Shown: positions 3,901-33,218, counted from the stretch's first letter. The stretch: 36,657 bases of DNA from Nitrospirota bacterium (GCA_040752355.1 JBFMHE010000029.1:1-36657), one strand, 5' to 3'. A program made the numbers and translations. The notes: generated by a model from the letters alone, not told the origin.

Positions 3901-4953
3901 ATGAGTAAACGAATTCTCGTTACCGGGGGGGCCGGCTTTCTCGGCTCCCACCTCTGTGAGCGGCTTCTGAACGAGGGGCATGAGGTCCTGTGCGCTGATA
4001 ACTTCTATACGGGACGCAGGAGCACTATCGCCCACCTCATGGGCCATCCCTGCTTCGAAGTACTGCGCCACGACATCTGCTTTCCGCTCTATGTCGAAGT
4101 CGATGAGATCTATAACCTCGCCTGCCCGGCATCTCCGGTTCACTACCAATTCGACCCCGTACAGACCACCAAGACGTCGGTGCACGGCAGCATCAACATG
4201 CTGGGGCTCGCGAAGCGCGTGAGGGCGAAGATACTGCAGGCATCGACGAGCGAGGTCTACGGCGACCCCGCCCTGCATCCCCAGTGCGAGACCTATTGGG
4301 GCAACGTCAACCCGATCGGGGTGCGGGCCTGCTACGATGAAGGCAAGCGGTGCGCCGAAACGCTCTTCTTCGATTACCACCGCCAGCACAAGCTGCGGAT
4401 CAAGGTGGCCCGCATCTTCAATACCTACGGTCCCCGCATGCACCCCAACGACGGACGGGTGGTGAGCAACTTCATCGTGCAGGCGCTGCGCGGGGAGCGC
4501 CTCACCGTCTACGGCGACGGGAGCCAGACACGGAGCTTCTGCTATGTCGATGACCTCGTGGATGGGCTGGTCAGACTGATGAACAGCGCCGACGATATTA
4601 CGGGACCGGTAAACCTCGGCAACCCCTCTGAGTTCTCGATCGCCGAGCTCGCACGGAAGGTGATCGAGCTGACCGGATCGTCCTCGGCGATCTGCTTCAA
4701 ACCCCTGCCGCAGGACGATCCGCTGCAGCGCAAGCCGGATATAGCGCTTGCGGCGCGTCTCCTCGGCTGGAAGCCCGCAATGCCTCTGGAGGAAGGGCTG
4801 AAGAGGGCCATAGCCTACTTCAGGACTGTCGATGCGGGTAGCGCGGAGGGGCTGGAAAAGAAAGAGGAAAATAGGACCGGCCCTTCGAAGGGCGTGCCGA
4901 AGATCACCCCCATCAACAAGAAAAAACAGAAACCGGCGGGAGTAGGCACCTGA
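3901..4953 (+). CDS. UDP-glucuronate decarboxylase (UDP-xylose synthase) with a Lys-rich tail
   Basis: 350 residues, short-chain dehydrogenase/reductase of the UXS type, which converts UDP-glucuronate to UDP-xylose in the cytoplasm. Visible motifs: NAD-binding G9-x2-G12-x2-G15, catalytic T116-S117-E118, Y145-x3-K149, and the family motifs [19 protein letters not shown] and [10 protein letters not shown]. The residues are those expected of an active UXS rather than a 4,6-dehydratase. The core ends near residue 310; a hydrophilic, Lys/Pro-rich tail of about 35 residues is extra compared with usual family length. It sits just after the asparagine-synthase-like gene (42-bp gap) and before an acyltransferase. 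No UDP-glucose dehydrogenase is in the window, so UDP-GlcA must come from elsewhere. Confidence 0.93.
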
Positions 4954-8277: not shown

Positions 8278-9123
8278 ATGATCAACGCCCTTACCATCGA
8301 CGTGGAAGACTACTTTCATGTCACCGCGTTCGAAAAGTATGTAAAAGCGGAGGAGTGGCCGCAGTATCCCTTCCGGGTATCGGACAACACGATGCGGATC
8401 CTCGATATGCTCGACGAATTCAGGGTAAAGGCGACCTTCTTCGTCCTCGCCTGGGTCGCCGAACGGGACCCTGCGCTGGTGAAAGAGATACGGAAGCGCG
8501 GGCACGACATCGCGTGCCACGGCTATGCCCATGAGCTCGTCTACCGGATCGGACCCGACCGGTTTCGCGACGATATCAGGAGGGCCCGCCGCATCCTCGA
8601 AGACCTCTGCGGCGCTGCGGTCAACGGCTACCGGGCGCCGAGCTACTCCATTACCAAGGCGTCGCTCTGGGCCTTCGACATCCTGATCGAAGAGGGCTTT
8701 ACCTATGATTCGAGCGTCTTCCCCATTGTCCACGACATCTACGGCATCCCGGACGCCCAGCGGTTCCCCCATGCAATCGAGAGGCCCGCGGGAGTCATCA
8801 AGGAGTTCCCCATGTCGACCATACAGATACGGATCTCGGGCGGCGAGTACCGGGTACCGATCTCGGGCGGAGGGTACCTGCGCCTCTTCCCCGTAGGATT
8901 GATCAGGAGGGCGATTCAGCACATCAACAGGGTCGAACGGCAGCCGGCAGTGCTCTACTTCCATCCCTGGGAGATCGACCCCGCGCAGCCGAGGATCGAG
9001 GCATCCTTCAGGTCCCGTTTCAGGCATTACCTGAACCTCGACAAGACCGCGGGCAAGGTGCGCGACCTTCTCCAGGGCCTCACCTTCGGACCGATGAGGA
9101 GCATACTCTATGACGCAGACTGA
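8278..9123 (+). CDS. XrtA-type polysaccharide deacetylase
   Basis: 281 residues, NodB-like carbohydrate esterase family 4. It begins MINALTIDVEDYFHVTAFE, the distinctive opening of the deacetylase subfamily linked to PEP-CTERM/XrtA exopolysaccharide loci. Catalytic and metal ligands are visible: D8/D11 region, H81 and H85 (CHGYAHE), the RAPS motif (119-122) and the YFHPWEID motif (228-234). It lacks a signal peptide, as is usual for this subfamily, so where it meets its substrate is uncertain. It probably removes N-acetyl groups from hexosamines of the polymer. Its 3' end overlaps the PaaK-like gene by 14 bp. No Shine-Dalgarno sequence is obvious; the start sits right after a T-rich repeat edge. 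Confidence 0.92.
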   Translation: MINALTIDVEDYFHVTAFEKYVKAEEWPQYPFRVSDNTMRILDMLDEFRVKATFFVLAWVAERDPALVKEIRKRGHDIACHGYAHELVYRIGPDRFRDDIRRARRILEDLCGAAVNGYRAPSYSITKASLWAFDILIEEGFTYDSSVFPIVHDIYGIPDAQRFPHAIERPAGVIKEFPMSTIQIRISGGEYRVPISGGGYLRLFPVGLIRRAIQHINRVERQPAVLYFHPWEIDPAQPRIEASFRSRFRHYLNLDKTAGKVRDLLQGLTFGPMRSILYDAD

Positions 9124-10533: not shown

Positions 10534-11199
10534 GTGACTATACCAAGGCTTCAGAAGACCTGCAGTAACGTGGTATGGCATACCACACTCGTCACCCGCT
10601 CTCATCGGGAGCGGATGAACGGCCACAGGAGCGTCGTCCTGTGGTTCACCGGGCTTTCGAACTCCGGCAAATCCACCATCGCCCACCGCGTCGAGGAGCG
10701 GCTGCACCGCCTCGGATGCCGCACGTTCGTATTCGACGGCGACAACGTCCGCCACGGCCTCTGCTCTGACCTCGGGTTCTCGCCGGAGCACCGGAAAGAG
10801 AATATCAGGCGCATCGGCGAGATGGCGAGGCTCTTCATCGAGGCAGGGGTCATCTCGATCGCCGCGTTCATCTCTCCCTACGACCAGGACCGGAAGTGGC
10901 TCAGAACGCGCGCGGGCAGCGACAGCTTCATAGAGATTTATTGCGAGTGTCCCCTCGAGATATGCGAACAGCGGGATGTGAAGGGGCACTACAAGAAGGC
11001 GCGGCGCGGCGAGATCCCGGAGTTCACCGGCGTCAGCGCACCCTACGAGCCGCCCGAAAACCCGGAGATACATCTCACGACGCACGAGATGACGGAAGAG
11101 GAGTGCGCGGAGGCGGTGGTCGCCTACCTGATCCGCAACGCCGTCCTCTTCGACACCGGGAAGAACGAGCCGGAGGAGAAGAAGGCTATCTGCTCGTAG
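10534..11199 (+). CDS. cysC: Adenylylsulfate (APS) kinase
   Basis: 221 residues, close to the usual CysC length. The Walker A loop is GLSNSGKST (40-48); [10 protein letters not shown] (67-76) binds the substrate adenosine phosphate; the active-site Ser is S114 in FISPYD. The N-terminal [11 protein letters not shown] stretch is also typical. It phosphorylates APS to PAPS, the universal sulfate donor. No ATP sulfurylase (CysD/N or Sat) and no recognisable sulfotransferase lies in the window, so its place in a glycan locus suggests polymer sulfation with the other parts elsewhere. GTG start with AAAGG about 8 nt upstream. Confidence 0.92.
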
Positions 11200-13568: not shown

Positions 13569-14592
13569 GGCGCGGTTTATTGCGGATACGCTCCTGCAGC
13601 TGCTGCGGCAGGACTATCCCCGTGACCGGTTCGAGATCATCGTCGCCGACGGCATGTCGAACGACGGCACGAGGGAGATCGTCTTCAACCTTGCGCGGGA
13701 GTACCCCATGCTCAGGCTGATCCCCAACCGGAAGCGGTTCTCGGGCGCCGGCAGGAACATCGGCTTCGAGCACGGGAAGGGAGATATCTTCGTGGTCGTC
13801 GACGGCCACTGCCACATCGATCACAACGGGTACTTCACCGCCATCGTCGAGAGCTTTGCGAAGAGCGGCGCCGACTGCCTCGGCAGGCCGCAGCCGCTCG
13901 ACCCTCCGGGGCTGACGCTCTTCCAGAAGGCCGTGGCCCTCGCGCGGTCGTCGCCGATCGGACATGGGGGCGACTCGCTGATCTACAGCGACTACGAGGG
14001 GTACGCGAGCCCCGTGAGCAACGGCGCCGCCTATACGCGGAAGGTGATCGAGCATCTCCGGAGCGTGGACGAGCGGTTCGACGCCTGCGAGGACGTGGAG
14101 TTCAACTACCGTGTCGAACAGGCGGGCTTCACCACGTATACCAGCCCCGCCCTGGCGGTGCGCTACTATCCCCGCGAGCACCTGAAGGGGCTCTTCAGCC
14201 AGATGATGCGGTACGGGCAGGGGCGGTTCAGGCTCCTCGAAAAGCACGCCGGGACCTTCTCGCTGAATACGCTTGTACCGGCGCTTTTCGTTGCCGGCAT
14301 CGCGCTCCTCGCCGCCGCCGCCCTCCTGTCGCCGCTCTCGGCGCTCTTCCTCGGACTCTTCGACCTCCTCGCCCTGGTGTTCATTCTGTACGGGCTGCTG
14401 GTCACCGGGGAAGCGGTGCGCATCGCTTCGCGGAGCGGCCTCCGCCATCTCGTCTTTCTCCCGTTCGTCTTCATCGCCATTCATGCCGGTCTCGGCGCCG
14501 GCTTTCTCCGGGAGATGGCGAGGGCGGGGCACGCGGTACTCCTCCCGGCAGCGCTGAAGCGGGGCGCCCTCAAACGGACCGCGCTGCGATGA
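13528..14592 (+). CDS. ExoA-like family 2 glycosyltransferase with C-terminal membrane helices
   Basis: 354 residues. ATG 13528 is preferred because GGAG (13518-13521) lies 6 nt upstream; ATG 13516 is the alternative. The GT-A domain starts ITVVVPVRNEARFI. At the metal site it carries DGHCHI (92-97) instead of DxD, as in the succinoglycan ExoA-like group. The acidic motif CEDVEFNYR supplies the catalytic base region. The C-terminus (about 250-330) has three hydrophobic helices. It overlaps the previous gene by 41 bp and the next by 4 (ATGA). Confidence 0.85.
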   Translation: MHPFITVVVPVRNEARFIADTLLQLLRQDYPRDRFEIIVADGMSNDGTREIVFNLAREYPMLRLIPNRKRFSGAGRNIGFEHGKGDIFVVVDGHCHIDHNGYFTAIVESFAKSGADCLGRPQPLDPPGLTLFQKAVALARSSPIGHGGDSLIYSDYEGYASPVSNGAAYTRKVIEHLRSVDERFDACEDVEFNYRVEQAGFTTYTSPALAVRYYPREHLKGLFSQMMRYGQGRFRLLEKHAGTFSLNTLVPALFVAGIALLAAAALLSPLSALFLGLFDLLALVFILYGLLVTGEAVRIASRSGLRHLVFLPFVFIAIHAGLGAGFLREMARAGHAVLLPAALKRGALKRTALR

Positions 14593-15755
14593 TAAAGATC
14601 GCCTTCGTGATTGACACGATCGACTCCCCCACGGCAGGGACCGAGCGGCAGCTCCTCATGCTGCTGAAACACCTCGACCGCCGCCAGTTCGATCCGTATC
14701 TCTGCGTGCTGCGCTCCTCGGCCTGGCTGGAGCAGGAGTTCGACCTCTGCCCCCTGCATGTCGCCGGCATCCGCTCCTTCAAGCAGCTCGGCTCCTGGCG
14801 GCGCTTATGGCGGTTCGCACGGTTCCTGAAGCGGGAGGGCATCGCTATCGTCCAGACACACTTCAGGGACTCGGACATCGCCGGCATCATCGCGGCGCGC
14901 CTCGCCGGCACAGCGGCGATCATCGCAACGCGGAGAAACCAGGGATACTGGCATAAACGGGGAGAGGTGGCGCTCAAGAAGCTCCTGAGCCGCCGGGCCA
15001 CCGTCATCATCGCCAATTCGCAGAGCACGAAACAATGGACCGCAGCGGTGGAAGGCGTGCCGGCGGAGCGGATACGGGTCATTCATAACGGCATCGAGCT
15101 CGAGGCATACCCGGGCAGCGATCCCGTGCTGCGGGAGCGCTGCCGGAGGCAGCTCGGGCTGTCCGGGAATACCTGCTGCATCGGCGTCGTGGCGAACCTG
15201 AGGCCGGTAAAAGGCATCGATGTCTTCCTGCGGGCAGCGGCGCAGGTGGCGAGACGGGTCGACGACGTGCGGTTCCTCATTGCAGGAGAGGGCGAAGAGC
15301 GTGCCGCGCTCATGCGGCTCGCCGCCGAGCTCGGCCTCGGCGGGGCGGTCCGGTTTCTCGGGAGGAGGCGGGACGTTCCGTCGCTCCTCGCCGCCTTCGA
15401 CATCGGCGTCCTCTCTTCGCATTCGGAGAGCTTTTCGAATGCACTCATCGAGTACATGGCCGCCGGCCTGCCGGTCGTCACTACCGATGTGGGCGGGAGC
15501 AGGGAGGCGGTCGAGGACGGCGTCAGCGGGTTCGTCGTACCGGTGGGGGATGACCATCGCATGGCGGAAGCGATTATCCGCATAGCAGAGGACCGCACGG
15601 AAGGACTGCGCATGGGCCAAAGAGGACGGCGCTGCGCCGAGCAGCTCTTTTCATCTCAGAGCTGTATCGAGAAGAGCGAGGCGCTCTACCGGGCATGCGG
15701 GCTCTCACGCGTGCGGGATGCCCGGCAGGTATGCCGTGGTGGGGCGCAGGTATGA
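14589..15755 (+). CDS. Family 4 glycosyltransferase (GT-B)
   Basis: 388 residues. N-domain motif VIDTIDSPTAGTERQLLML; linker VIHNGIELE; C-domain VVANLRPVKGIDVFL, IAGEGEER and E-x7-E within SESFSNALIEYMAAGLPVV. These are the standard features of retaining GT4 enzymes of lipopolysaccharide and capsule synthesis. Start and stop are both ATGA overlaps with neighbours, so it is embedded in a coupled run. The Cys/Arg-rich C-terminal 20 residues are unconserved-looking. Donor unknown. Confidence 0.88.
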   Translation: MIKIAFVIDTIDSPTAGTERQLLMLLKHLDRRQFDPYLCVLRSSAWLEQEFDLCPLHVAGIRSFKQLGSWRRLWRFARFLKREGIAIVQTHFRDSDIAGIIAARLAGTAAIIATRRNQGYWHKRGEVALKKLLSRRATVIIANSQSTKQWTAAVEGVPAERIRVIHNGIELEAYPGSDPVLRERCRRQLGLSGNTCCIGVVANLRPVKGIDVFLRAAAQVARRVDDVRFLIAGEGEERAALMRLAAELGLGGAVRFLGRRRDVPSLLAAFDIGVLSSHSESFSNALIEYMAAGLPVVTTDVGGSREAVEDGVSGFVVPVGDDHRMAEAIIRIAEDRTEGLRMGQRGRRCAEQLFSSQSCIEKSEALYRACGLSRVRDARQVCRGGAQV

Positions 15756-17440
15756 AGCGCAGCGCACTGCCGTACGCCGCCGTGCCGCAGCCGCACTACG
15801 GACTGTTGGCAGGAGCCTTCCTGCTGATCGCCCTTACGCTGCACCAGGCAGGCACAGCAGTCCTCTTTGCCGCAGGCTGGAATCTCTCGCCTCTTCCGGT
15901 GTTTTTCGCGGTCTGCGCTGCCGTACTCATCGTATGGCGGCAGCTCGCCCTTTTTCCCCGAGAGAAGAGAATTGCAGCGTTTTCAGCGCTCCTGCTCACG
16001 AACGCCCTGATCGTCGCCCTCGCCCTCGCCCTGAGCGGGGCCTTCTATGACCTCTCTTTCGACGGGCAGAACTATCACCAGGAGGCGATCATCGAGCTGG
16101 CGAGGGGATGGAACCCGCTCCATGCCGAGCTCTCGAACAACGACCACGCGCTCTGGATAAACCACTATGCGAAAGGACCATGGATCGGCGCCGCAGCGCT
16201 CTCCCAGCTAACCGGAACTATCGAGTATGGCAAGGCCATGAATATACTCCTCCTCGCCGCATCGATGATGACCTGCTATGCGGCCCTCGCCGCAATGACA
16301 CGGATAGGACCTGAAAAGGCGGTCCCGCTCAGCATCCTGTTCGCCTGCAACCCCGTTGCACTGACCCAGCTCCTCAGCTTCTATGTCGACGGGCAGCTCT
16401 ATTCCGTGCTGCTGATGTTCCTCTCGCTGGCATATTTTGCTTTTACGAAGCCGCAGGGCATCGTCATGCTCATGCTCGCCTTCAGCACGATCATGGCCGT
16501 CACGATCAAGTTCACCGGGCTCGTCTATATCGCCGTGCTGGGTGCGGGAGTGTTCGCCGGGTTCCTGCTCTCCGGCAGAGCGGCAGCGGGGACGCGCTTC
16601 TTAGCGTATGTAGCGCTGGGTACCCTCGTGGGTGTTCTCCTGGTGGGGTTCAATCCTTATGTCACCAATTTTCTGAAGAAGGGCCATCCCTTCTATCCCC
16701 TGGCCGGAAAGGAGCCGGTCGACATAATTAAACCGAATACGCCGGGAAATCTGCTTTCCCGCAGTCGCGTCGAAGCGCTCGCCCTGTCGGTGTTTTCCCG
16801 CTCCGAGAATGCAACTGCAGCGAAGGCCGCGACTATCAAGATGCCGTTTACCGTCGCTTTTTCCGAGCTGAAAGCGCACCGGGGGGCCGATACGAGGGTC
16901 GGCGGATTCGGGCCTTTCTACAGCGGGATGCTCGTGGTGGCCCTGCTTATCGTCATGGTGGCGTTCCGGCATAACGCAAAGAAGACGGCGGCAGCGGTCG
17001 CCGGGGGCGCGCTCATCCTGGCATCTGCCCTGGTCAACCCTGCTCCCTGGTGGGCCCGCTATGTCCCGCAGCTCTGGATGCTGCCGCTCATCCCCCTCGT
17101 CCTGGCGCACCACCTGCACGGCAGCAGGCTGCTGCGCGTCCTCCCGGTCCTCCTCGTGCTCAGCGCCGCTGCCGATGTCGCGCTCGTTGCCGGCCCTTAT
17201 TGTTATGCACAGTACCGTGACAGCAGGGCGCTCGACCGGCAGCTGCTCTCGATCGCGGAGAGCGCGAAGCCGGTCGTCGTGGATTTCAACTCCTTCAGGT
17301 CCAACCGGCTCCGCCTGGAGAGGTACGGCATCAGGTATCATGAGGTCGATGCGGCGCCGTGCGGCCCGCGCATACGGCTTGTCGGCTCGGGAACGGAGCT
17401 CTGCGTCCCCGGAAATATCCCGCGAGGGACGGCTTTATGA
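15752..17440 (+). CDS. Polytopic GT-C-like membrane glycosyltransferase
   Basis: 562 residues from ATG 15752 (ATGA overlap); longer upstream readings are rejected. About ten hydrophobic helices are visible from residue 18 onward. The first large loop, after helix 3, carries SFDGQNYHQEAI (103-113) with Asp104, Tyr108 and His109, plus a second polar stretch NDHALWINHYAKGP. An acidic residue in the first periplasmic loop is the usual catalytic signature of GT-C enzymes (GT39/ArnT-like), which use polyprenyl-phosphate sugars as donors on the periplasmic side. I cannot assign a family with certainty. Its direct coupling to a HAD phosphatase and a UbiA-type prenyltransferase supports a lipid-linked pentose donor. 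Confidence 0.7.
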   Translation: MKRSALPYAAVPQPHYGLLAGAFLLIALTLHQAGTAVLFAAGWNLSPLPVFFAVCAAVLIVWRQLALFPREKRIAAFSALLLTNALIVALALALSGAFYDLSFDGQNYHQEAIIELARGWNPLHAELSNNDHALWINHYAKGPWIGAAALSQLTGTIEYGKAMNILLLAASMMTCYAALAAMTRIGPEKAVPLSILFACNPVALTQLLSFYVDGQLYSVLLMFLSLAYFAFTKPQGIVMLMLAFSTIMAVTIKFTGLVYIAVLGAGVFAGFLLSGRAAAGTRFLAYVALGTLVGVLLVGFNPYVTNFLKKGHPFYPLAGKEPVDIIKPNTPGNLLSRSRVEALALSVFSRSENATAAKAATIKMPFTVAFSELKAHRGADTRVGGFGPFYSGMLVVALLIVMVAFRHNAKKTAAAVAGGALILASALVNPAPWWARYVPQLWMLPLIPLVLAHHLHGSRLLRVLPVLLVLSAAADVALVAGPYCYAQYRDSRALDRQLLSIAESAKPVVVDFNSFRSNRLRLERYGIRYHEVDAAPCGPRIRLVGSGTELCVPGNIPRGTAL

Positions 17441-18099
17441 TCGCGCGGGGCGGGCGTGCCGCGTCCGGGGGCATGCGTCTCCCGGGCAGCGCTGAAGACA
17501 CTGCGGGACAGGCGATCGCTTTGTTCGATTTCGACCATACCGTTTCAGCGGACGACAGTCTCAAGGACTTTCTGCTGTATGCCGTCGGCCGCACGAGGCT
17601 GCTGCTCGGCGCGCTCGCCTTGAGCCCCCTGCTCGTCGCCTGCGCGCTGGGGCTGATTCCGAGAGAAATGGCGAAGGAGAGGGTCGTAAGTCATTTTTTC
17701 GGGAATTGGAAGTATCGGCACTTTGCGTCCATAGCCTCCGCGTACAGCAGGGAGAGGCTCCCGCAGCTCGTGCGGCCTGATGCCCTTGCGCGCATACGCT
17801 GGCACCAGCGCCGGGGCCACACGGTCGTCATCGTCACCGCCTCCCTCGAGGACTGGATCGAGGGCTGGTGCAGGGCACAGGGCCTCGGACTGATCGCAAC
17901 GCGGCTCGATGTCGAGAACGGCCGTGTTACGGGCAGGTTTCGGGGACGGAATTGCAACGGAGCGGAGAAGGTCAGGAGAATCGGACTGCAGTACGATCTC
18001 GGGGCGTACGATTATGTGTATGCGTACGGCGACAGCACGGGTGATAACGATATGCTCGCGCTGGCAGACGAGAAATACTATCGGTGGAAGCGTTTATGA
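17437..18099 (+). CDS. HAD-IB family phosphatase
   Basis: 220 residues from ATG 17437 (ATGA overlap). HAD motifs are complete: motif I DFDHT (31-35) with D31 and D33, motif II T134-A-S136, Lys178, and motif III GDSTGDND (198-205) with D199, D203 and D205. The hydrophobic stretch about 52-75 could be a cap element or membrane anchor. In the SerB-like IB subgroup the substrate is a small phosphomonoester. Because the next gene is a decaprenyl-phosphate phosphoribosyltransferase homologue overlapping by 4 bp, the likely role is removing the 5-phosphate from the lipid-linked phosphoribose. That role is inference. Confidence 0.85.
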   Translation: MIARGGRAASGGMRLPGSAEDTAGQAIALFDFDHTVSADDSLKDFLLYAVGRTRLLLGALALSPLLVACALGLIPREMAKERVVSHFFGNWKYRHFASIASAYSRERLPQLVRPDALARIRWHQRRGHTVVIVTASLEDWIEGWCRAQGLGLIATRLDVENGRVTGRFRGRNCNGAEKVRRIGLQYDLGAYDYVYAYGDSTGDNDMLALADEKYYRWKRL

Positions 18100-18965
18100 A
18101 CACGGCGGTCGTCCGGCTCATGCGGCCCCACCACTACCTGAAGAATCTCTTCATCCTCGCCCCGCTCTTCTTCGGGCTCAAGGTCTATCAGCCCGAGCTG
18201 CTGGCCCGGGCAGCGACCGCCTTTCTGGGATTTTCATTGGCGGCGAGCGCGGTCTACATCCTCAACGATTATTACGACCAGGAGAGCGACCGGGCGCATC
18301 CGGTCAAAAAGAACAGACCCCTCGCTGCAGGGCTCGTCACCCGGACCGAAGCGCTCCTGCTCATGGCAGTGTGCCTGGCCGGAGGCATGGCGATTACGTT
18401 CCTGGCGGGAACGGCTCCTGTGGCGTTGACGCTCGTCTACGTGCTCGTCATGATCGCCTATACGGTAAAGCTGAAGCATGTCGCCCTCATCGATGTCTTC
18501 ATCATAGCAGCGGGATTCGTCCTGCGCCTGTTCGTCGGCGCCGAGACGATAGGGATATCGCTTTCGATGTGGATCGTTCTCATCACCTTCCTGCTGGCGC
18601 TTTTCCTCGCCCTGGCAAAGCGGAGGGACGATTACGTCCTCTACAAGGAGGATGGCCGCAGGACCAGAAAGGTGATCGAGCACTACAACATCCCGCTGCT
18701 CGACGCAGCGATGGTCCTCATGTCCTCCGTTACGGTGGTCGCCTACATCATGTACACCATATCCCCTGAAGTGATCGCGCGGGCAAGGACCGACAAGCTG
18801 TATCTCACGGCAGGGTTCGTCATCTTCGGCATCATGCGGTACATGCAGCTCACCTTCGTGTACCGGACCAGCGGGTCCCCTACGAAGCTCCTGATGCACG
18901 ACGGGTTCCTCAAGGCGTCCGTCATAGGCTGGATCGCGGCCTTTGCGCTGTTGCTGTACCGGTGA
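18096..18965 (+). CDS. UbiA-family prenyltransferase, decaprenyl-phosphate phosphoribosyltransferase-like
   Basis: 289 residues from ATG 18096 (ATGA overlap); the in-frame GTG 18084 is less likely. A polytopic membrane enzyme with the aspartate-rich motif N57-D58-x2-D61-x3-D65 followed by HPVKKNRPLAAG, then YTVKLKHVALIDVF (122-135) and RKVIEHY. These match the DPPR synthase branch (Rv3806c type), which moves phosphoribose from PRPP to polyprenyl phosphate, rather than the ubiquinone or heme branches. In actinobacteria the product is dephosphorylated and epimerised to decaprenylphosphoryl-arabinose, the donor for cell-wall arabinan. Here it follows a phosphatase and a GT-C-like enzyme, suggesting a comparable Gram-negative pathway. 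No DprE1/E2 pair is in the window. Confidence 0.88.
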   Translation: MNTAVVRLMRPHHYLKNLFILAPLFFGLKVYQPELLARAATAFLGFSLAASAVYILNDYYDQESDRAHPVKKNRPLAAGLVTRTEALLLMAVCLAGGMAITFLAGTAPVALTLVYVLVMIAYTVKLKHVALIDVFIIAAGFVLRLFVGAETIGISLSMWIVLITFLLALFLALAKRRDDYVLYKEDGRRTRKVIEHYNIPLLDAAMVLMSSVTVVAYIMYTISPEVIARARTDKLYLTAGFVIFGIMRYMQLTFVYRTSGSPTKLLMHDGFLKASVIGWIAAFALLLYR

Positions 18966-18998: not shown

Positions 18999-19865
18999 GT
19001 GCCTGACGGGAACGATAAATACGGAACGGTCGTCTATACCCCGGAGTCGCAGCTCCGCAGCCCGGTGCAGTTGCTGCGCACCATGGGGCGGGACCTGCTG
19101 CACGCGCGGGAGCTGGGGTGGCGGCTCTTCGTACGGGATACTTCCGCCCGGTACCGCCAGAGCATACTGGGCATCTTCTGGTCCTTTGTGCCCCCGCTCG
19201 TCACCGGGCTCGTCTTCATCATCCTCCAGTCGAAGAGGATCGTGAACTTCGGCGCCACCGACATCCCTTACCCGGTCTTCGCCATGGCCGGGACCATGCT
19301 CTGGCAGCTCTTTACCGAGAGCCTCAACGGACCGCTGGCGAGCGTGCGCGGCGCCCTTCCCCTGCTGGCGAAGATAAACTTTCCCCGCGAGGCGCTGATC
19401 CTCGCGGCGTTCTACCATATCCTCTTCAGTCTTGCCATCAAGATGACGCTGCTCCTCGGCATCCTTCTTCTCTTCGATATCCCCTTGACGTTCCGGCTCG
19501 TGCCTGCTCTCGGGGTCATCATGATGCTCATATTCCTCGGGATGGGCATCGGCCTCCTGCTGACGCCCGTGAGCATGCTCTATACGGATATATCGTCGCT
19601 GCTGGCGGTCGCGGTCCAGCTCGGCTTTTTCGTGACGCCGGTGGTCTATCCTCCGCCGACCGCTTTCCCGTACTCCCTGGTAACCGTCGTCAATCCGGCC
19701 GGCATTCTGCTGACGGCTGCGCGGGACCTCATGGCGAAGGGAGCGCTCACCGGCTCCGCGGTACCGCTTCTGCTGGTATGCCTCCTGACGGTCCTGCTCC
19801 TCTTCGGCGCCTGGATCGTCTACCGCGTCGCGCTCCCCCTCATCATCGAGCGGATGAGCTCCTGA
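18999..19865 (+). CDS. wzm: Polysaccharide ABC-2 exporter, membrane subunit (Wzm-like)
   Basis: 288 residues, GTG start with GAGAGG about 5 nt upstream. It begins with an amphipathic N-terminal region (RELGWRLFVRDTSARYRQSILGIFWSFVPP), the hallmark of Wzm/KpsM-type permeases, then six membrane helices with the typical FAMAGTMLWQLF and FFVTPVVYP segments. It forms the channel through which a completed, lipid-linked glycan crosses the inner membrane. The stop overlaps the start of the ATPase by one base (TGATG), the usual arrangement for such pairs. Confidence 0.93.
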   Translation: MPDGNDKYGTVVYTPESQLRSPVQLLRTMGRDLLHARELGWRLFVRDTSARYRQSILGIFWSFVPPLVTGLVFIILQSKRIVNFGATDIPYPVFAMAGTMLWQLFTESLNGPLASVRGALPLLAKINFPREALILAAFYHILFSLAIKMTLLLGILLLFDIPLTFRLVPALGVIMMLIFLGMGIGLLLTPVSMLYTDISSLLAVAVQLGFFVTPVVYPPPTAFPYSLVTVVNPAGILLTAARDLMAKGALTGSAVPLLLVCLLTVLLLFGAWIVYRVALPLIIERMSS

Positions 19866-21052
19866 TGTCCGACCTGCTCGTCACCGCGGAAGGGGTCCAT
19901 AAGAAGTTCTGCCGGAGCCTCAAGCGCTCCCTCTGGTACGGCATGAGCGACATGGGCGCCGAGCTCATGGGCCTGCGCGGGCCCGCGGGCTTGCGGCGGG
20001 ATGAGTTCTGGGCGGTCAGGGATGTCTCGTTCCGGCTGCGCAGGGGCGAGACCATAGGGCTCATCGGCCATAACGGGGCGGGGAAGACGACGCTCCTCCG
20101 CATCCTCAACGGGCTCATACGGCCGGACCGGGGCCGCGTCGAGGTAACCGGGAGGATGCAGGCGCTGATCGCGCTCGGCGCGGGGTTCAATCCCATACTG
20201 ACCGGAAGAGAGAATATCTATGTCAACGCCGCCGTGCTGGGCATCCCCAAGGCGGAGGTCGAGCGGCGGTTCGATGAGATCGTCGATTTTTCGGGGGTGG
20301 GCGAGTTCATCGACGCCCCGGTGCAGAGCTACAGCTCCGGCATGAGCGTCCGGCTGGGGTTCGCCGTAGCGGCTCACCTGAACCCCGACATCCTGCTCGT
20401 GGACGAGGTGCTGGCCGTGGGAGACTACGGGTTCCAGAGCAAATGCTACAACAAGATCGGGGAGCTGAAGAAGAACGGGGCCGGCATCATACTCGTATCG
20501 CACAACATGCATACGGTATCGACTTTTTCGGACCGGGTGATGCTGCTCAGCAGGGGCGAGTGCAGGCTGTTCGACTATGTCCCCGAAGGCGTCAAGGCGT
20601 ATACCAGCTTCTTCGCCGCCACGGACCAGAGCGACGACATCGAGAAGGTAGTGAGCGGCAACGACAGCATCAGCTTCGACGAGGTGGCGATAGAGAAGCG
20701 GGACCTGCGGCCCGCGGATTCGTTCGTGCTCTCGATGCGGTACGCGTCGACGAAGACCTACGAGGGGGTCGATATCGACACCCTCATGTACAGCAGCACC
20801 GACCCGTGGCTCTATTTCCAGAGCACGAACAAGGCGTACAACCGCACCGTCGATCTGCCGCAGGGATCGCATACCCTGCGCGTCGCCATAAGGGACATTC
20901 CGCTCAACAGTGCATCGGCGAAGATCGTCGTGACCGTCTGGACGAAACACCGGACCGAGAAGCTCTTCTGGTGGAGAGTCCCGGTCACCTTCGGCGGGGT
21001 CGACTATTCGACCGGGAACAATTTCCTGAAGGTGGAGTATGAGGTCGAATAA
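19865..21052 (+). CDS. wzt: Polysaccharide ABC exporter ATPase with C-terminal glycan-binding domain (Wzt-like)
   Basis: 395 residues from ATG 19865. Walker A GHNGAGKTT (68-76), Wzt-type signature YSSGM (156-160), Walker B ILLVDE (176-181) with D180/E181, and switch His213 are all present. After about residue 250 a separate domain of about 145 residues follows, with beta-rich, aromatic sequence like the Wzt C-terminal carbohydrate-binding module. In known systems that module recognises the capped non-reducing end of the glycan, so export depends on a terminal modification. Longer readings through the permease gene are rejected. It overlaps the next GT2 by 14 bp. Confidence 0.92.
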   Translation: MSDLLVTAEGVHKKFCRSLKRSLWYGMSDMGAELMGLRGPAGLRRDEFWAVRDVSFRLRRGETIGLIGHNGAGKTTLLRILNGLIRPDRGRVEVTGRMQALIALGAGFNPILTGRENIYVNAAVLGIPKAEVERRFDEIVDFSGVGEFIDAPVQSYSSGMSVRLGFAVAAHLNPDILLVDEVLAVGDYGFQSKCYNKIGELKKNGAGIILVSHNMHTVSTFSDRVMLLSRGECRLFDYVPEGVKAYTSFFAATDQSDDIEKVVSGNDSISFDEVAIEKRDLRPADSFVLSMRYASTKTYEGVDIDTLMYSSTDPWLYFQSTNKAYNRTVDLPQGSHTLRVAIRDIPLNSASAKIVVTVWTKHRTEKLFWWRVPVTFGGVDYSTGNNFLKVEYEVE

Positions 21053-26043: not shown

Positions 26044-27068
26044 GCATGCCTGCGACGAGCCGGAGAGTATCGGTAATCATTCCGACGTACAACCGGGCCC
26101 ATTACCTCAAAAAATCGGTAAAGTCGGCCCTGCGCCAGACCTACGGCAACCTCGAGGTGATCGTGGTCGACGACGGCTCGACCGACAACACCCGTGCGGT
26201 GCTCCAGCCGTACATCGACGACCGCCGTATCATCTACCTCTACCAGAACAACGCGGGCAGTCCCGCGAAGGCGAGGAACCGCGGCCTGCGTGCCGCATCG
26301 GGCGACTATATCGCCTTCCTCGATTCCGACGATGTCCGCATGCCGGAGAGCATCGAGAGGAGCGTGGCGCTGCTCGACGCTTCTCCCGAGGTCGGCATGG
26401 TCTGCGCCGACTGGCTCAACTTCAAACGGTACCACAGCGTGCGGCGCGACCGGAAGCCGTCGTGGATAACGAAGGCCGGCTACATAGAGAAGCTCCCGGA
26501 TGAGTTCGTGCGCGAGAGAGGAGAGGACTTCCTGATCCTCGGAGAGGACTTCATCTACGAGCTGTTCAACACGAACTTCGTTTTCACGAGCAGCGTCGTT
26601 ACCCGCCGGGCCCTGCTCGACCGGGTCGGGTGGTTCGATGAATCGTTGACCATCGGAGAGGACTGCGACCTCTGGATGAGAATATGCGAGGTCGCGTACC
26701 TGGCCTTCCTTACCAGCCCCCTCGTCTATCGGCGGGTCCACCGGGGGAGCATAACGAGCTCCCTGGCGCGTAATATCATGGACGATACCAGGGTGCTCGA
26801 GAAGTTCATGAGCAAAAGAAGACCCCTGCAGCCGTACGTGAAGAAGCGTTTTCACCGGAGGCTCGAGAACTTTTACTCCCGCTCGGGCTATTTCTTTTTT
26901 ACCCGCAACAACCTGGCGGAGTCACGGAAGCGGTTCATGAGAGCGATACGGTACAACCCCTCGGCCTACGCCTATTACCGCTATTTCGCCCTCTCGCTGA
27001 TGCCCATGGACCTGTTTCTCCTCGCGAAACGGCTGAAACAGCGGATGAGCCGGTCCGAATATGCCTGA
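26040..27068 (+). CDS. Family 2 glycosyltransferase
   Basis: 342 residues from ATG 26040 (ATGA overlap); the much longer in-frame reading starts inside the previous gene and is rejected. VSVIIPTYNRAHYLKKSVKSAL, VVDDGSTDNT (42-51), LDSDD (94-98) and the acidic GEDCDLWMR. It shares a 35-bp identical DNA stretch (26152-26186) with 24209-24243 of its paralogue. A helical C-terminal region resembling a degenerate TPR (NLAESRKRFMRAIRYNPSA) follows the catalytic domain. Overlaps the next gene by 8 bp. Confidence 0.88.
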   Translation: MSMPATSRRVSVIIPTYNRAHYLKKSVKSALRQTYGNLEVIVVDDGSTDNTRAVLQPYIDDRRIIYLYQNNAGSPAKARNRGLRAASGDYIAFLDSDDVRMPESIERSVALLDASPEVGMVCADWLNFKRYHSVRRDRKPSWITKAGYIEKLPDEFVRERGEDFLILGEDFIYELFNTNFVFTSSVVTRRALLDRVGWFDESLTIGEDCDLWMRICEVAYLAFLTSPLVYRRVHRGSITSSLARNIMDDTRVLEKFMSKRRPLQPYVKKRFHRRLENFYSRSGYFFFTRNNLAESRKRFMRAIRYNPSAYAYYRYFALSLMPMDLFLLAKRLKQRMSRSEYA

Positions 27069-28338
27069 ACGGACAGCGGCGGTGCGCCGCACGCACATCG
27101 GGGATGCCATGGACAGCATCGAGAACATGACCGCGGGGCTCTCGATAGCGGCAGAGCTGTCCGGCGGCGGGCGGGCTTTTGTGGTCGTCGACTCCCTTTA
27201 CCACGGCACGAGCTCCGGCGGCGTCAGGGTCGCGGAGAATATCGAGCTCGGGGAGGTGCAGGCCCTGGCCCGGGAGATGACCCTCAAGTTCCGCTTCATA
27301 GGGCTGCCGCGGGGAGGGGCCAAGAGCGGGATCAGGATGCCGGCAGGGCTCTCCCCTGACGGGAAGCGGAGGCTCCTCGAAGAGGTCGGGCGGCGGTACG
27401 CTCCCCTCATACAGACCGGGCTCTACTATCCCGGTATGGACATGAACTGCGGCCCCGACGACCTGCGCGCCCTCTACCGGGGGGCGGGCATTGCGCTGGG
27501 AGCGGTTACCGACACCTCCTACTTCACCGCCCTTTCGGTAGCCAATGCCGTCATCGCCTGCAGCGACGTTCTTGCCGGGGACGGACGGCCGCTCACCGTG
27601 GCGATCGAGGGGTTCGGAAGCGTAGGGCGCTCCCTCGCCGAACGGCTTCCGGCGGAGCGCTTCCGCATCGTCGCCGTCTCGACGATGAAAGGCGCTGCGG
27701 TCGACAGGAGCCGGAAGGGATTCTCCGCACCCCTGCTGTCGTCCCTGCGAAGAGAGTTCGGCGACGACTGCGTGAGCATGATCGGGGGAGCGCGGACCGA
27801 GCGTGAGCGGCTCCTCGAGGCCGAGGTGGATATCCTCCTGCCCTCGGCCCGGACCTGGGTGATCGATGAGAACACTGCACGGAACGTCAGGGCGCGGTGC
27901 ATCGTTCCCATAGCCAACGCGCCCTATACGAAAGAGGCCGTGGGCCTGTTGCATGAGCGGGGTGTGGTCTGCCTGCCCGGCTTTGTCACCAACTCCGGCG
28001 GGGTCTACGCCTCCTCTCTCTACGACAGCGGGGTTCCGGGTGAACGGATAGAGCAGATATCGGCCACGCTATACCGGAGAATTGTCGGCCTCCTCGTGAG
28101 AAAAGCGGCGGAGCTCCGGCAGTCCCCGGTCGTCCTGGCCGAAGCCGTCGCCCTGGAGCGGCTGAGAAGGGCGCATGAAGGGCACGGGCAGGGGCAGGGG
28201 AGCGCCGGGCTCGTCCGGAGGATCGGAAAGCTGCTGCGCCGGAAGGGGATCGTACCGAGGGCCTGGCATGCCCGGGCCTTCGAGGCGCGGTTCATCAACA
28301 ATCTCGAGCAGCTCCTCAAGGAGATAGAAGAAAAGTAA
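27061..28338 (+). CDS. Glu/Leu/Phe/Val-type amino-acid dehydrogenase
   Basis: 425 residues. Substrate-domain motifs MTLKFRF (Lys76) and PRGGAKSGI (Lys88) correspond to the substrate-binding and catalytic lysines of glutamate dehydrogenases; Asp127 (YPGMDMNCGPDD) fits the catalytic aspartate. The NAD(P) domain has GFGSVG (184-189). The family reversibly deaminates an amino acid to a 2-oxoacid and ammonia. Its specificity is not readable here. An amino-acid dehydrogenase inside a glycan locus is unusual; it could supply an amino acid or oxoacid for decoration, or ammonia. ATG 27061 overlaps the GT2 by 8 bp; ATG 27109 is an alternative. The stop codon lies within the dispersed repeat. Confidence 0.85.
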   Translation: MPERTAAVRRTHIGDAMDSIENMTAGLSIAAELSGGGRAFVVVDSLYHGTSSGGVRVAENIELGEVQALAREMTLKFRFIGLPRGGAKSGIRMPAGLSPDGKRRLLEEVGRRYAPLIQTGLYYPGMDMNCGPDDLRALYRGAGIALGAVTDTSYFTALSVANAVIACSDVLAGDGRPLTVAIEGFGSVGRSLAERLPAERFRIVAVSTMKGAAVDRSRKGFSAPLLSSLRREFGDDCVSMIGGARTERERLLEAEVDILLPSARTWVIDENTARNVRARCIVPIANAPYTKEAVGLLHERGVVCLPGFVTNSGGVYASSLYDSGVPGERIEQISATLYRRIVGLLVRKAAELRQSPVVLAEAVALERLRRAHEGHGQGQGSAGLVRRIGKLLRRKGIVPRAWHARAFEARFINNLEQLLKEIEEK

Positions 28339-28357
28339 GAAGTAAGAGGGAGCTTAC
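28333..28357. repeat. Dispersed intergenic repeat, copy 2
   Basis: AAGTAAGAAGTAAGA (28333-28347) directly followed by GGGAGCTTAC (28348-28357), the same blocks and order as 8095-8125 but without the 6-bp insert. It supplies the TAA stop of the upstream dehydrogenase gene. Confidence 0.8.
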
Positions 28358-28369
28358 AGGAAACTCTCT

Positions 28370-28382
28370 GGAGTTGAACTCC
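28370..28382. repeat. Short perfect palindrome in the 28339-28427 spacer
   Basis: GGAGTTGAACTCC has 6-bp arms around a single central G. It has no T-tract after it, so it is not a standard intrinsic terminator. It could be an operator half of unknown meaning or part of the repeat element. Confidence 0.5.
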
Positions 28383-28391
28383 GGCTCCCGG

Positions 28392-28419
28392 CGCTTGGCG
28401 CTCAACGCTTCACGCTCGA
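28392..28419. repeat. Four tandem 7-bp CGCTYnn units
   Basis: CGCTTGG, CGCTCAA, CGCTTCA and CGCTCGA stand head to tail, ending 8 bp before ATG 28428. The region occupies the position where a ribosome binding site would be expected, and none is seen. Confidence 0.7.
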
Positions 28420-28427
28420 TACGCATT

Positions 28428-29507
28428 ATGAAAATCGCAATCCCTTCGCATATAGCTCGTGACTACGGCGCTCATCTGAGGAGAGCCTATCCTGATGCGG
28501 ACATTATCCCGCTTGCTATCCACCGCCGCGAATCTCCGTTCCGGAAGGTCTTGCGGCGGTGCGCGGAGTACGGGCTCCCGTATCACACCTATGAGCGGCT
28601 GCAGCCGTGGATAGGGCGGCGGCCCTCGTTCAGTTTTTCGCTCGATGGAAAGCCGCTCTCGGCGCCGGCAAGCGACGTGCAGGGGCTGCTCGCGACATGG
28701 ATGATGGAGTATGACTCCCTCAAGCAGCTGCTCCCGCTGCTGCCCGGGCTCCGGTGGCTCCATTCCACCAAGTCCGGCGTCGAGCATCTGCCCGGGGAGT
28801 GCCTGGGCAACCGGAGCCTCACCGTGACCGCCTCGCGCGGCGCGCATTCCCGCCGCATCGCGGAGTTCGTTATGGGTCTCATTTATTGCTTCGGCAAAAA
28901 CTACCTGGGGCACCGCGCCCTCCAGCAGAAGCGGCGGTGGGACCAGCTGCCGTCGCTCGATATCGAAGGAAAGCAGGTAGCGGTGCTCGGCGCCGGGAGC
29001 ATAGGACGCGAGGTGGCGCGGAAGGCACGGGCGGGCGGCATGCGCGTCTCCGGGGTGAGCCTGCGGGGAAGGCCCGACCGGCTTTTCGAGAGGGTCTATC
29101 TCCCGGAGCAGCTCGGCGATGCGCTGCGGGGGGCTGATTTCATCGTCGTCTGCCTGCCCCTGACCAGGGAGACGACGGGTTTCATCGGCGCCGAAGCGCT
29201 GGCACGGATGAAGCGCACGGCGTACCTGATCAACATTGCCCGCGACCGCATCGTCGACCGGGAAGCCCTGGTCCGGGCGCTGCGCACGGGCGCGCTGGCG
29301 GGCGCGGCGATCGACGCGGTCGCCGACGATTTCCTGCCGAGGAGCCATCCCTATTATCGGCTCGATAACCTGCTTATCACGCATCACTGCGCCTACCGCG
29401 GCGAGACCCCGGCTGCGGCGCTCCTCGGCAGGTTCGAAGAGAACCTTGGGCGGTTCCTCGCGGGCGAACCGCTGATAGATACGATCGATCCCGAAAAAGG
29501 GTACTGA
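28428..29507 (+). CDS. D-2-hydroxyacid dehydrogenase family protein
   Basis: 359 residues from ATG 28428; the longer reading from 28374 would translate the repeat spacer and is rejected. The NAD-binding loop GAGSIG (188-193), the Arg-containing INIARDRIVD (268-277) and the catalytic His in ITHHCAY (His319/His320) are those of D-isomer-specific 2-hydroxyacid dehydrogenases. By eye, the catalytic Glu position (the E of the usual EPLP motif) is Asp301 in ADDFLP, and the Gly after the conserved Arg is Asp. It would interconvert a 2-oxoacid and a D-2-hydroxyacid with NAD(P)H; the preceding amino-acid dehydrogenase makes 2-oxoacids, so they may work in series. Function in the glycan pathway is unproven. 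Confidence 0.83.
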   Translation: MKIAIPSHIARDYGAHLRRAYPDADIIPLAIHRRESPFRKVLRRCAEYGLPYHTYERLQPWIGRRPSFSFSLDGKPLSAPASDVQGLLATWMMEYDSLKQLLPLLPGLRWLHSTKSGVEHLPGECLGNRSLTVTASRGAHSRRIAEFVMGLIYCFGKNYLGHRALQQKRRWDQLPSLDIEGKQVAVLGAGSIGREVARKARAGGMRVSGVSLRGRPDRLFERVYLPEQLGDALRGADFIVVCLPLTRETTGFIGAEALARMKRTAYLINIARDRIVDREALVRALRTGALAGAAIDAVADDFLPRSHPYYRLDNLLITHHCAYRGETPAAALLGRFEENLGRFLAGEPLIDTIDPEKGY

Positions 29508-31943: not shown

Positions 31944-33218
31944 ATGCTATGGCTCGTGATCGGGTATATGTTTCTCTTCGTCTTCAGGCCCTTCGAGTAT
32001 TGGCCGGTGCTGGGGACCTACCGCATCGAACGGGTGTATATGATCGCGCTCCTCGTCGTGCTGTTCCTCTGGCAGGGGAAGCGCCATCTTACCCACTCCA
32101 TCAATAATTCCATCCTCTTCTTCCTGGGGGTTATGGTGGTGTCGTCGGTGTGGGCGTTCAGCACGGATGATGCCTACCAGGCTACCTTCGACTACTTCAA
32201 GCTGGTCGTCTTCTATTTCGTCATCGTCCTGACGATCAGGGACGAGCGGCAGCTGAAGATATTCATGGTCGCGTACATCGCCGTCCTGTTTCTCTACGTC
32301 GGCAAGTCGGCCTGGGAATTTTTCGTCCACGGGAGATACGTGTACAACATGGGCATAAAACGAATGCCGGGTCTCGATACCACCTACGGCGACCCGAATG
32401 CCTTCGCCGCCTCCATCGCCTACTCGCTGCCGTTCCTCTGGGCACTGATCAAGTACCGTTTCGAGCAGCCGCTGATCCGTAAGATGCTCTGGGCCTATGC
32501 GCTCCTAGCCGGCGTCTGTATCATCGCCACCGGCTCGCGCAGCGGCATGGTGACGTCGCTTCTGTTTCTCCTGCTCGTATTCTTCAGTACGTCCCGCAAG
32601 GTCACCGGGGTCACCCTGCTCCTCGCGCTGCTCGCCTTTGTGTGGAATGTCATGCCGCTCGACTATCAGCAGCGGTTCAAGTCCGCCTTCTTCCGGGGTG
32701 TCGCTCCCCAGGCGCAGGCAGCCGATGCCTCTGCCCAGGGCCGGCTCGAAAGCCTGAAACAGGGGATCAAGATGTTCATGGAGAGCCCGCTCCTCGGCAT
32801 CGGACCGGGCAACTTCAAGTACGGGTGGGATCACGCCCCGGTCGGTCCCAGCGCGCACAACCTCTACGGCGAGCTCCTGGGCGAGACGGGTGTCATGGGG
32901 CTTTTGGTATTCTCCGCCCTGGTGATACTCATCGTCAGGACGCACCGAACGATCATTGAGCGGGCAACACTCTTCCTGACCGTACATGCCGCCAACGCCC
33001 CTCCCGCATCCGTGGACAATATGCGCCTGCTCCGGCTTCTTTCTTCAGCCTCGGTGCAGGTTGTTGTGCTCCTCCTGTTCAACGGGAATTTCGGCCGCAA
33101 CCTGTATCGGTACAACTGGCTCTGGATCGGCGCGATCGCGGTCCTTTCGTTTCACTTTCTGAACCAGGAGCTCAAACGATCCGGTGCAATAGCCGGGCTG
33201 AAGGCACGTCGCTCGTGA
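31944..33218 (+). CDS. O-antigen ligase/polymerase-like membrane protein (WaaL/Wzy_C family)
   Basis: 424 residues with about 10-12 membrane helices. Family motifs are visible: GSRSG near residue 196, and in the long periplasmic loop the sequence ESPLLGIGPGNF followed by AHNLYGELLGETG near 305, which holds the conserved His used by ligases. Such proteins either ligate a polyprenyl-linked glycan to lipid A core or protein, or polymerise repeat units. Because Wzm/Wzt is also present, ligase is the more natural reading; sequence alone cannot separate the two. Two bases after the previous stop. Confidence 0.85.
   Translation: MLWLVIGYMFLFVFRPFEYWPVLGTYRIERVYMIALLVVLFLWQGKRHLTHSINNSILFFLGVMVVSSVWAFSTDDAYQATFDYFKLVVFYFVIVLTIRDERQLKIFMVAYIAVLFLYVGKSAWEFFVHGRYVYNMGIKRMPGLDTTYGDPNAFAASIAYSLPFLWALIKYRFEQPLIRKMLWAYALLAGVCIIATGSRSGMVTSLLFLLLVFFSTSRKVTGVTLLLALLAFVWNVMPLDYQQRFKSAFFRGVAPQAQAADASAQGRLESLKQGIKMFMESPLLGIGPGNFKYGWDHAPVGPSAHNLYGELLGETGVMGLLVFSALVILIVRTHRTIIERATLFLTVHAANAPPASVDNMRLLRLLSSASVQVVVLLLFNGNFGRNLYRYNWLWIGAIAVLSFHFLNQELKRSGAIAGLKARRS

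Follow-up and report, generated by a model that had tools for sequence, protein, structure and literature searches.

A predicted ribofuranose donor and transfer module beside the Wzm/Wzt genes of a Nitrospirota glycan locus

The window analysed here is a stretch of 36,657 nucleotides from a Nitrospirota bacterium (GCA_040752355.1, JBFMHE010000029.1:1-36657). Within its glycan locus lie three consecutive genes, for a polytopic membrane protein, a HAD-IB phosphatase and a UbiA-family protein (Table 1). A first-pass annotation of this DNA placed the three genes at 15752-18965, joined by 4-bp overlaps, and saw in them a module for making and using a lipid-linked pentose. The coordinates are right: there is an ATGA at each join (15752, 17437 and 18096), where the start ATG of each gene overlaps the stop of the gene before. 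The overlap at 15752 translationally couples the module to the GT4 gene upstream, and the Wzm gene begins 33 bp downstream of the UbiA gene and is followed by Wzt. The best NCBIfam matches of the Wzt-like ATPase are teichoic acid/galactan exporter ATPases, below cut-off. That the three genes are a horizontal insert was considered and dropped, as their G+C content, overall and at third codon positions (GC3), is similar to that of neighbouring genes. We propose, with a probability of roughly 0.78, that they form a ribofuranose donor and transfer module for the polysaccharide that Wzm/Wzt would export.

Table 1. Genes of the predicted module and their immediate neighbours
Feature	Coordinates	Strand	Remarks
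GT4 glycosyltransferase	14589..15755	+	PF00534 135.3 bits; predicted backbone enzyme, outside the donor pathway
Polytopic membrane protein, 562 aa	15752..17440	+	predicted GT-C-type pentofuranosyltransferase, periplasmic side
HAD-IB phosphatase, 220 aa	17437..18099	+	predicted polyprenyl-P-(5-phospho-ribose) 5'-phosphatase (PRP); PF12710, TIGR01490
UbiA-family polyprenyl-phosphate phosphoribosyltransferase (PPPRS/DPPRS), 289 aa	18096..18965	+	NF008977
Wzm-like ABC transporter permease for glycan	18999..19865	+	NF050109 52.1 bits, below cut-off 380
Wzt-like ABC transporter ATPase, C-terminal extension	19865..21052	+	PF00005

The UbiA protein carries the motifs N57-D58-x2-D61-x3-D65, H68-PVKKNR-P75 and Y122-TVKLK-H128; all those quoted in the first-pass annotation are present in the translation, and so are the motifs of the HAD active site. 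They are not a product of chance, because the NCBIfam model NF008977 is passed by the one protein and TIGR01490/PF12710 by the other. Against NF008977 (decaprenyl-phosphate phosphoribosyltransferase) the UbiA protein scores 234.3 bits with a cut-off of 234, compared with 35 bits for the model of UbiA proper and 33 for that of heme o synthase. Its best sequence match in the PDB is mycobacterial Rv3806c (8j8j and 8j8k; E 2e-32 for 8j8j). A structure model built from eight sequences (predicted local distance difference test, pLDDT, 82; predicted template modelling score, pTM, 0.78) finds the same 8j8j as its top match both in Foldseek (E 2.4e-10) and in VIA-align (Z 24.6 over 269 residues, root-mean-square deviation 3.9). 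Other UbiA folds come next in VIA-align, at Z 22.6 and lower. Families of UbiA are not told apart by fold alone; they are told apart by residues.

The residues of Rv3806c that contact phosphoribosyl pyrophosphate (PRPP) and the lipid phosphate have been described (PMC10994848). When 13 of these substrate contacts and the fourth Asp of the motif were compared by alignment, 12 of the 14 positions proved identical in the UbiA protein. Lys28, Tyr70 and Lys191 of Rv3806c are kept, and these are absent from control UbiA proteins, including the genome's own two; the K/R cluster is present as well. Tyr157 of Rv3806c corresponds to Phe141, and Phe is common here among relatives. In a maximum-likelihood tree with long paralogue branches, from which E. 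coli UbiA, COX10 and MenA were left out, the protein joins those of genomes G050, G016 and G132 (98/96) inside a set that includes Rv3806c, and it stands apart from the paralogues of its own genome (L001, L003) and from UbiA proteins encoded in G164 and G176 (98/97). The phylogeny suggested in the first-pass annotation therefore groups the protein with the DPPRS-like set. Together with the NCBIfam scores, the PDB match, the fold and the residues, this upholds the view that it is DPPRS-like, neither a quinone nor a heme prenyltransferase. Judged by sequence and model, it is a polyprenyl-phosphate phosphoribosyltransferase.

The HAD protein matches PF12710 with 119.6 bits and TIGR01490 with 111.7 bits (cut-off 98.3), and its catalytic residues D31-x-D33-x-T35, S136, K178 and D199/D203 are invariant in an alignment of six members. 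The profile's best matches in the PDB are 3fvv and phosphoserine phosphatases, so that assignment of the protein as PRP phosphatase rests on gene pairing and not on structure. The published three-component system (PMC11127046) combines a PPPRS with a HAD-type phosphoribose phosphatase; here a PPPRS gene adjoins a HAD gene with complete catalytic residues. The same split UbiA and HAD gene pair occurs in Prevotella oral taxon 299 (L085), in MT837543 (L086) and in Lactococcus cremoris pF27D (L087), with identities to the window's proteins of 46%, 47% and 32% for UbiA and 35%, 36% and 26% for HAD; the HAD figures range over 34-36% for L085 and L086 and 26-28% for L087. In these three modules, unlike in that of the window, the pair has a neighbouring gene of GtrA-like or SMR/EamA type; their large membrane proteins, DUF6080 in L085, DUF6044 in L086 and an unassigned one in L087, are unrelated to ours. 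The GtrA of L085 is what we take it to be from our own reading of its 135-aa sequence. L086 (MT837543.1), a 6.6 kb fecal scaffold with a putative 'Bacteriophage sp.' label, carries a full cassette of UbiA, HAD, SMR, short-chain dehydrogenase/reductase (SDR) epimerase and DUF6044 protein. No relatives of the window's HAD protein were found in viral contigs or in G050, G132 and G016. It had been proposed that a HAD enzyme takes the place of the mycobacterial PAP2-type phosphatase, and with a complete active site and a gene beside UbiA this proposal gains ground; family and gene pairing make the protein a predicted PRP phosphatase.

Hydropathy gives the membrane protein some 11 hydrophobic segments. 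It matches no Pfam family, its NCBIfam match to LIC_10190_fam is weak (20.8 bits), and a profile of four sequences finds no GT-C protein in the PDB. Among four aligned relatives D104, G105, H109 and R436 are invariant, D104 lying in the motif YDLSFDGQNYHQEA. The GT-C-like acidic first loop of the first-pass annotation stands as regards the conserved D104; its position as first loop is not established, since the D104-G105..Y-H109 motif comes after roughly the third hydrophobic segment. Relatives are rare: they were seen in three of 395 genomes of the phylum, our own included, and in three Cereibacter plasmids, and none was found in viral contigs. Their company links the protein to pentofuranose, as the first-pass annotation had it. 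On Cereibacter azotoformans pORIO1 (L084) a relative of 29-30% identity is clustered with a PPPRS, as in the window. The pORIO1 cluster differs in that HAD and UbiA are fused and that it contains a GtrA gene together with DprE1-like (FAD) and DprE2-like (SDR) genes; its predicted sugar is arabinofuranose. In G176 the relative adjoins the gene of a 119-aa EamA/SMR-like protein, and a different short contig of the same genome carries a HAD-UbiA fusion adjacent to DprE1. All this supports a GT-C that depends on a polyprenyl-P-sugar and is probably, though not necessarily, specific for pentofuranose.

What, then, would the acceptor be? The lipid-pentose donor could be made as proposed and the GT-C protein could decorate a protein or a lipid instead of the ABC-exported glycan, the link to the latter being one of gene order only. 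In some loci from the same order, PPPRS genes have type IV pilin and PMT_2/TPR genes in their vicinity, and a related pathway has been proposed, in work cited in PMC11127046, to arabinosylate pilin in Pseudomonas. Here, however, the genes are translationally coupled to GT4 and stand 33 bp from Wzm, and the GT-C relative of G164 likewise sits in a Wzm/Wzt glycan locus, so we think such an acceptor unlikely, although it is the strongest of the alternatives. As an observation in its own right, the PPPRS-like UbiA genes of L066, L067 and L071 (genomes G035, G079 and G070) lie 1.4 to 5.4 kb from genes for pilin-like proteins with a GFTLIEL motif (with an N_methyl match for L067 and L071) and near PMT_2+TPR membrane proteins, DprE1/E2 not being nearby. 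Pilin pentofuranosylation is possible in those loci.

For the module as a source of ribofuranose for the exported glycan, the identity of the pentose has to be considered next. The first-pass annotation allowed ribofuranose or arabinofuranose and suggested a genome-wide search for DprE1/DprE2. There is neither in the window. In the source genome (G000), which is 100% complete, no protein scores above 35 bits for DprE1 or above 38 bits for DprE2; the genomes G050 and G132, taken as positive controls, give 414 and 434 bits for the former and 189 and 180 for the latter. Four FAD_binding_4 proteins do occur in the genome; from our own reading of their sequences we take them to resemble GlcD, a vanillyl-alcohol oxidase, a sugar-lactone oxidase and MurB. 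With these likenesses and bit scores, DprE1 and DprE2 elsewhere in the genome are ruled out. In published systems arabinofuranose goes with DprE1/DprE2 and xylofuranose with an extra SDR epimerase, while ribofuranose is the default (PMC11127046). Because of that default and the lack of DprE1/DprE2, ribofuranose is the best prediction; it is the likely sugar, and the arabinofuranose of the earlier expectation is unlikely.

Two variants of the same donor pathway would give another sugar. An SDR epimerase might turn lipid-linked ribofuranose into xylofuranose, as ORF13 of Citrobacter youngae O2 does (PMC11127046). A candidate is the NAD-dependent epimerase/dehydratase gene at 3901-4953, whose product is 25% identical to the SDR of the L086 module. 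But this gene is 11 kb away, in NCBIfam its product comes closest to LegB and dTDP-glucose 4,6-dehydratase, below cut-off, and the E of 1e-5 between the two proteins reflects common SDR similarity only, which makes xylofuranose distinctly improbable. Arabinofuranose made by unrecognised epimerases has in its favour that the closest relatives with assignable neighbours, L052 (UbiA 57% identical) and L054 (51%), two of the three closest UbiA relatives, carry homologues of DprE1 and DprE2 immediately after UbiA, and that two of the three other GT-C genomes examined also have DprE1. Against it stands the absence of both enzymes from a complete genome when the positive controls are strong, and we consider it very improbable. 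The closest PPPRS on the tree, that of L053 (G016; UbiA 56% identical), lies near neither a HAD nor a DprE gene and is accompanied instead by genes for a 302-aa and a 590-aa protein. Finally, the UbiA protein could be a prenyltransferase of the quinone, heme or archaeal-lipid type that lies in the locus by chance. The general UbiA fold and the Asp motifs speak for this, but the tree placement, the K/R cluster with Lys28 and Tyr70 as further Rv3806c-type residues, and 234 bits for NF008977 against 35 and 33 make it most improbable.

If a ribofuranose module is correct, its working can be outlined as follows. The UbiA protein would transfer 5-phosphoribose from PRPP to polyprenyl phosphate in the cytoplasm, a step for which sequence and fold argue strongly. 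The HAD enzyme would then remove the 5'-phosphate to give polyprenyl-P-ribofuranose. Since the genome is without DprE1/DprE2, the sugar should stay ribofuranose. A transporter encoded outside the module, which is the gap in the scheme, would then flip the lipid-linked ribofuranose to the periplasmic side. There the GT-C protein would use it to add pentofuranose to the glycan being exported or to some other acceptor in the periplasm. The first-pass annotation offered the joint pathway as its own inference. Pathway and HAD step had in fact been published: in 2024 the lipid-linked pentofuranose route, in which a HAD domain removes the 5'-phosphate, was shown biochemically in Citrobacter youngae O1 (PMC11127046). 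A flippase gene was not found in the module, which to that extent is incomplete.

In C. youngae O1/O2 the parts are ORF15 (PRP-PPPRS), ORF14 (flippase) and ORF12 (GT136) (PMC11127046). The window resembles these loci in combining a predicted PRPP-dependent UbiA synthase, a HAD phosphatase and a GT-C-like protein in a Wzm/Wzt-dependent locus. It differs in that HAD and UbiA are separate genes, that there is no flippase gene, and that the GT-C-like protein reaches no named family. With the mycobacterial decaprenyl-phosphate arabinose (DPA) pathway, whose parts are Rv3806c, Rv3807c, DprE1/DprE2 and Emb/Aft, the window shares a UbiA protein that is homologous to Rv3806c and agrees with it in PRPP residues and in fold; it departs from that pathway in having a HAD enzyme where mycobacteria have the unrelated Rv3807c, in lacking DprE1/DprE2 and in its Wzm/Wzt export. 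By analogy, then, the window appears to be a further example of a route already demonstrated and no new kind of system.

Several observations weigh against the reading as a ribofuranose module. The NF008977 cut-off is cleared by a margin of 0.3 bits only. Gln135 of Rv3806c, which contacts ribose O3, is Met119 in our protein, and the relatives examined have Asn, Gln or Thr. A single-sequence AlphaFold2 model of the membrane protein is poor (pLDDT 47), and its GT-C fold is not demonstrated. In the G164 genome no protein reaches the DPPRS cut-off (highest score 37.9 bits); the GT-C family may therefore not be restricted to pentofuranose. No dedicated small flippase (EmrE/ArnE-like or GtrA) is encoded in the module, and the whole genome is without an SMR gene and without a small EamA gene, every EamA match falling in a reading frame of 284-432 aa.

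The genome's one GtrA domain lies on another contig, where it forms part of a GtrA-GT2 fusion. This fusion (L094, G000:C8:102760-103107), in a reading frame of 488 aa with another membrane protein next to it, belongs to a separate periplasmic glycosylation set. G050 and G132 likewise lack GtrA and SMR. As no flippase gene was found, we place the window not with the full three-component systems but in the broader kind of polyprenyl-P-pentofuranose donor pathways. A transporter of another family may flip the lipid-linked pentose. One could speculate further that the PPPRS clade of the window, G050 and G132 as a whole uses an unrecognised transporter in place of SMR, ArnE or GtrA, with Met119 marking altered donor handling, but we regard this as a long shot.

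Other genes of the window deserve mention. The gene at 8278-9123 encodes a polysaccharide deacetylase of the XrtA system (391 bits, cut-off 276). That at 31944-33218 encodes a Wzy_C/O-antigen-ligase protein weakly similar to PEP-CTERM-associated ligases; in these two genes the glycan locus resembles exosortase-A exopolysaccharide loci. An adenylylsulfate kinase within the locus (10534-11199; 283.6 bits, cut-off 163) hints at a sulfated polymer. A Glu/Leu-type dehydrogenase and a D-2-hydroxyacid dehydrogenase lie among glycosyltransferases at 27061-29507, which is unusual for a glycan locus.

If our reading is right, an experimentally shown route of pentofuranose decoration would extend to another lineage. 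The finding points to a GT-C-like family that has no Pfam model and to a flippase step that is still unsolved. The absence of DprE1/DprE2 moreover yields a sugar prediction that can be tested: the pentose should be ribofuranose and not arabinofuranose.

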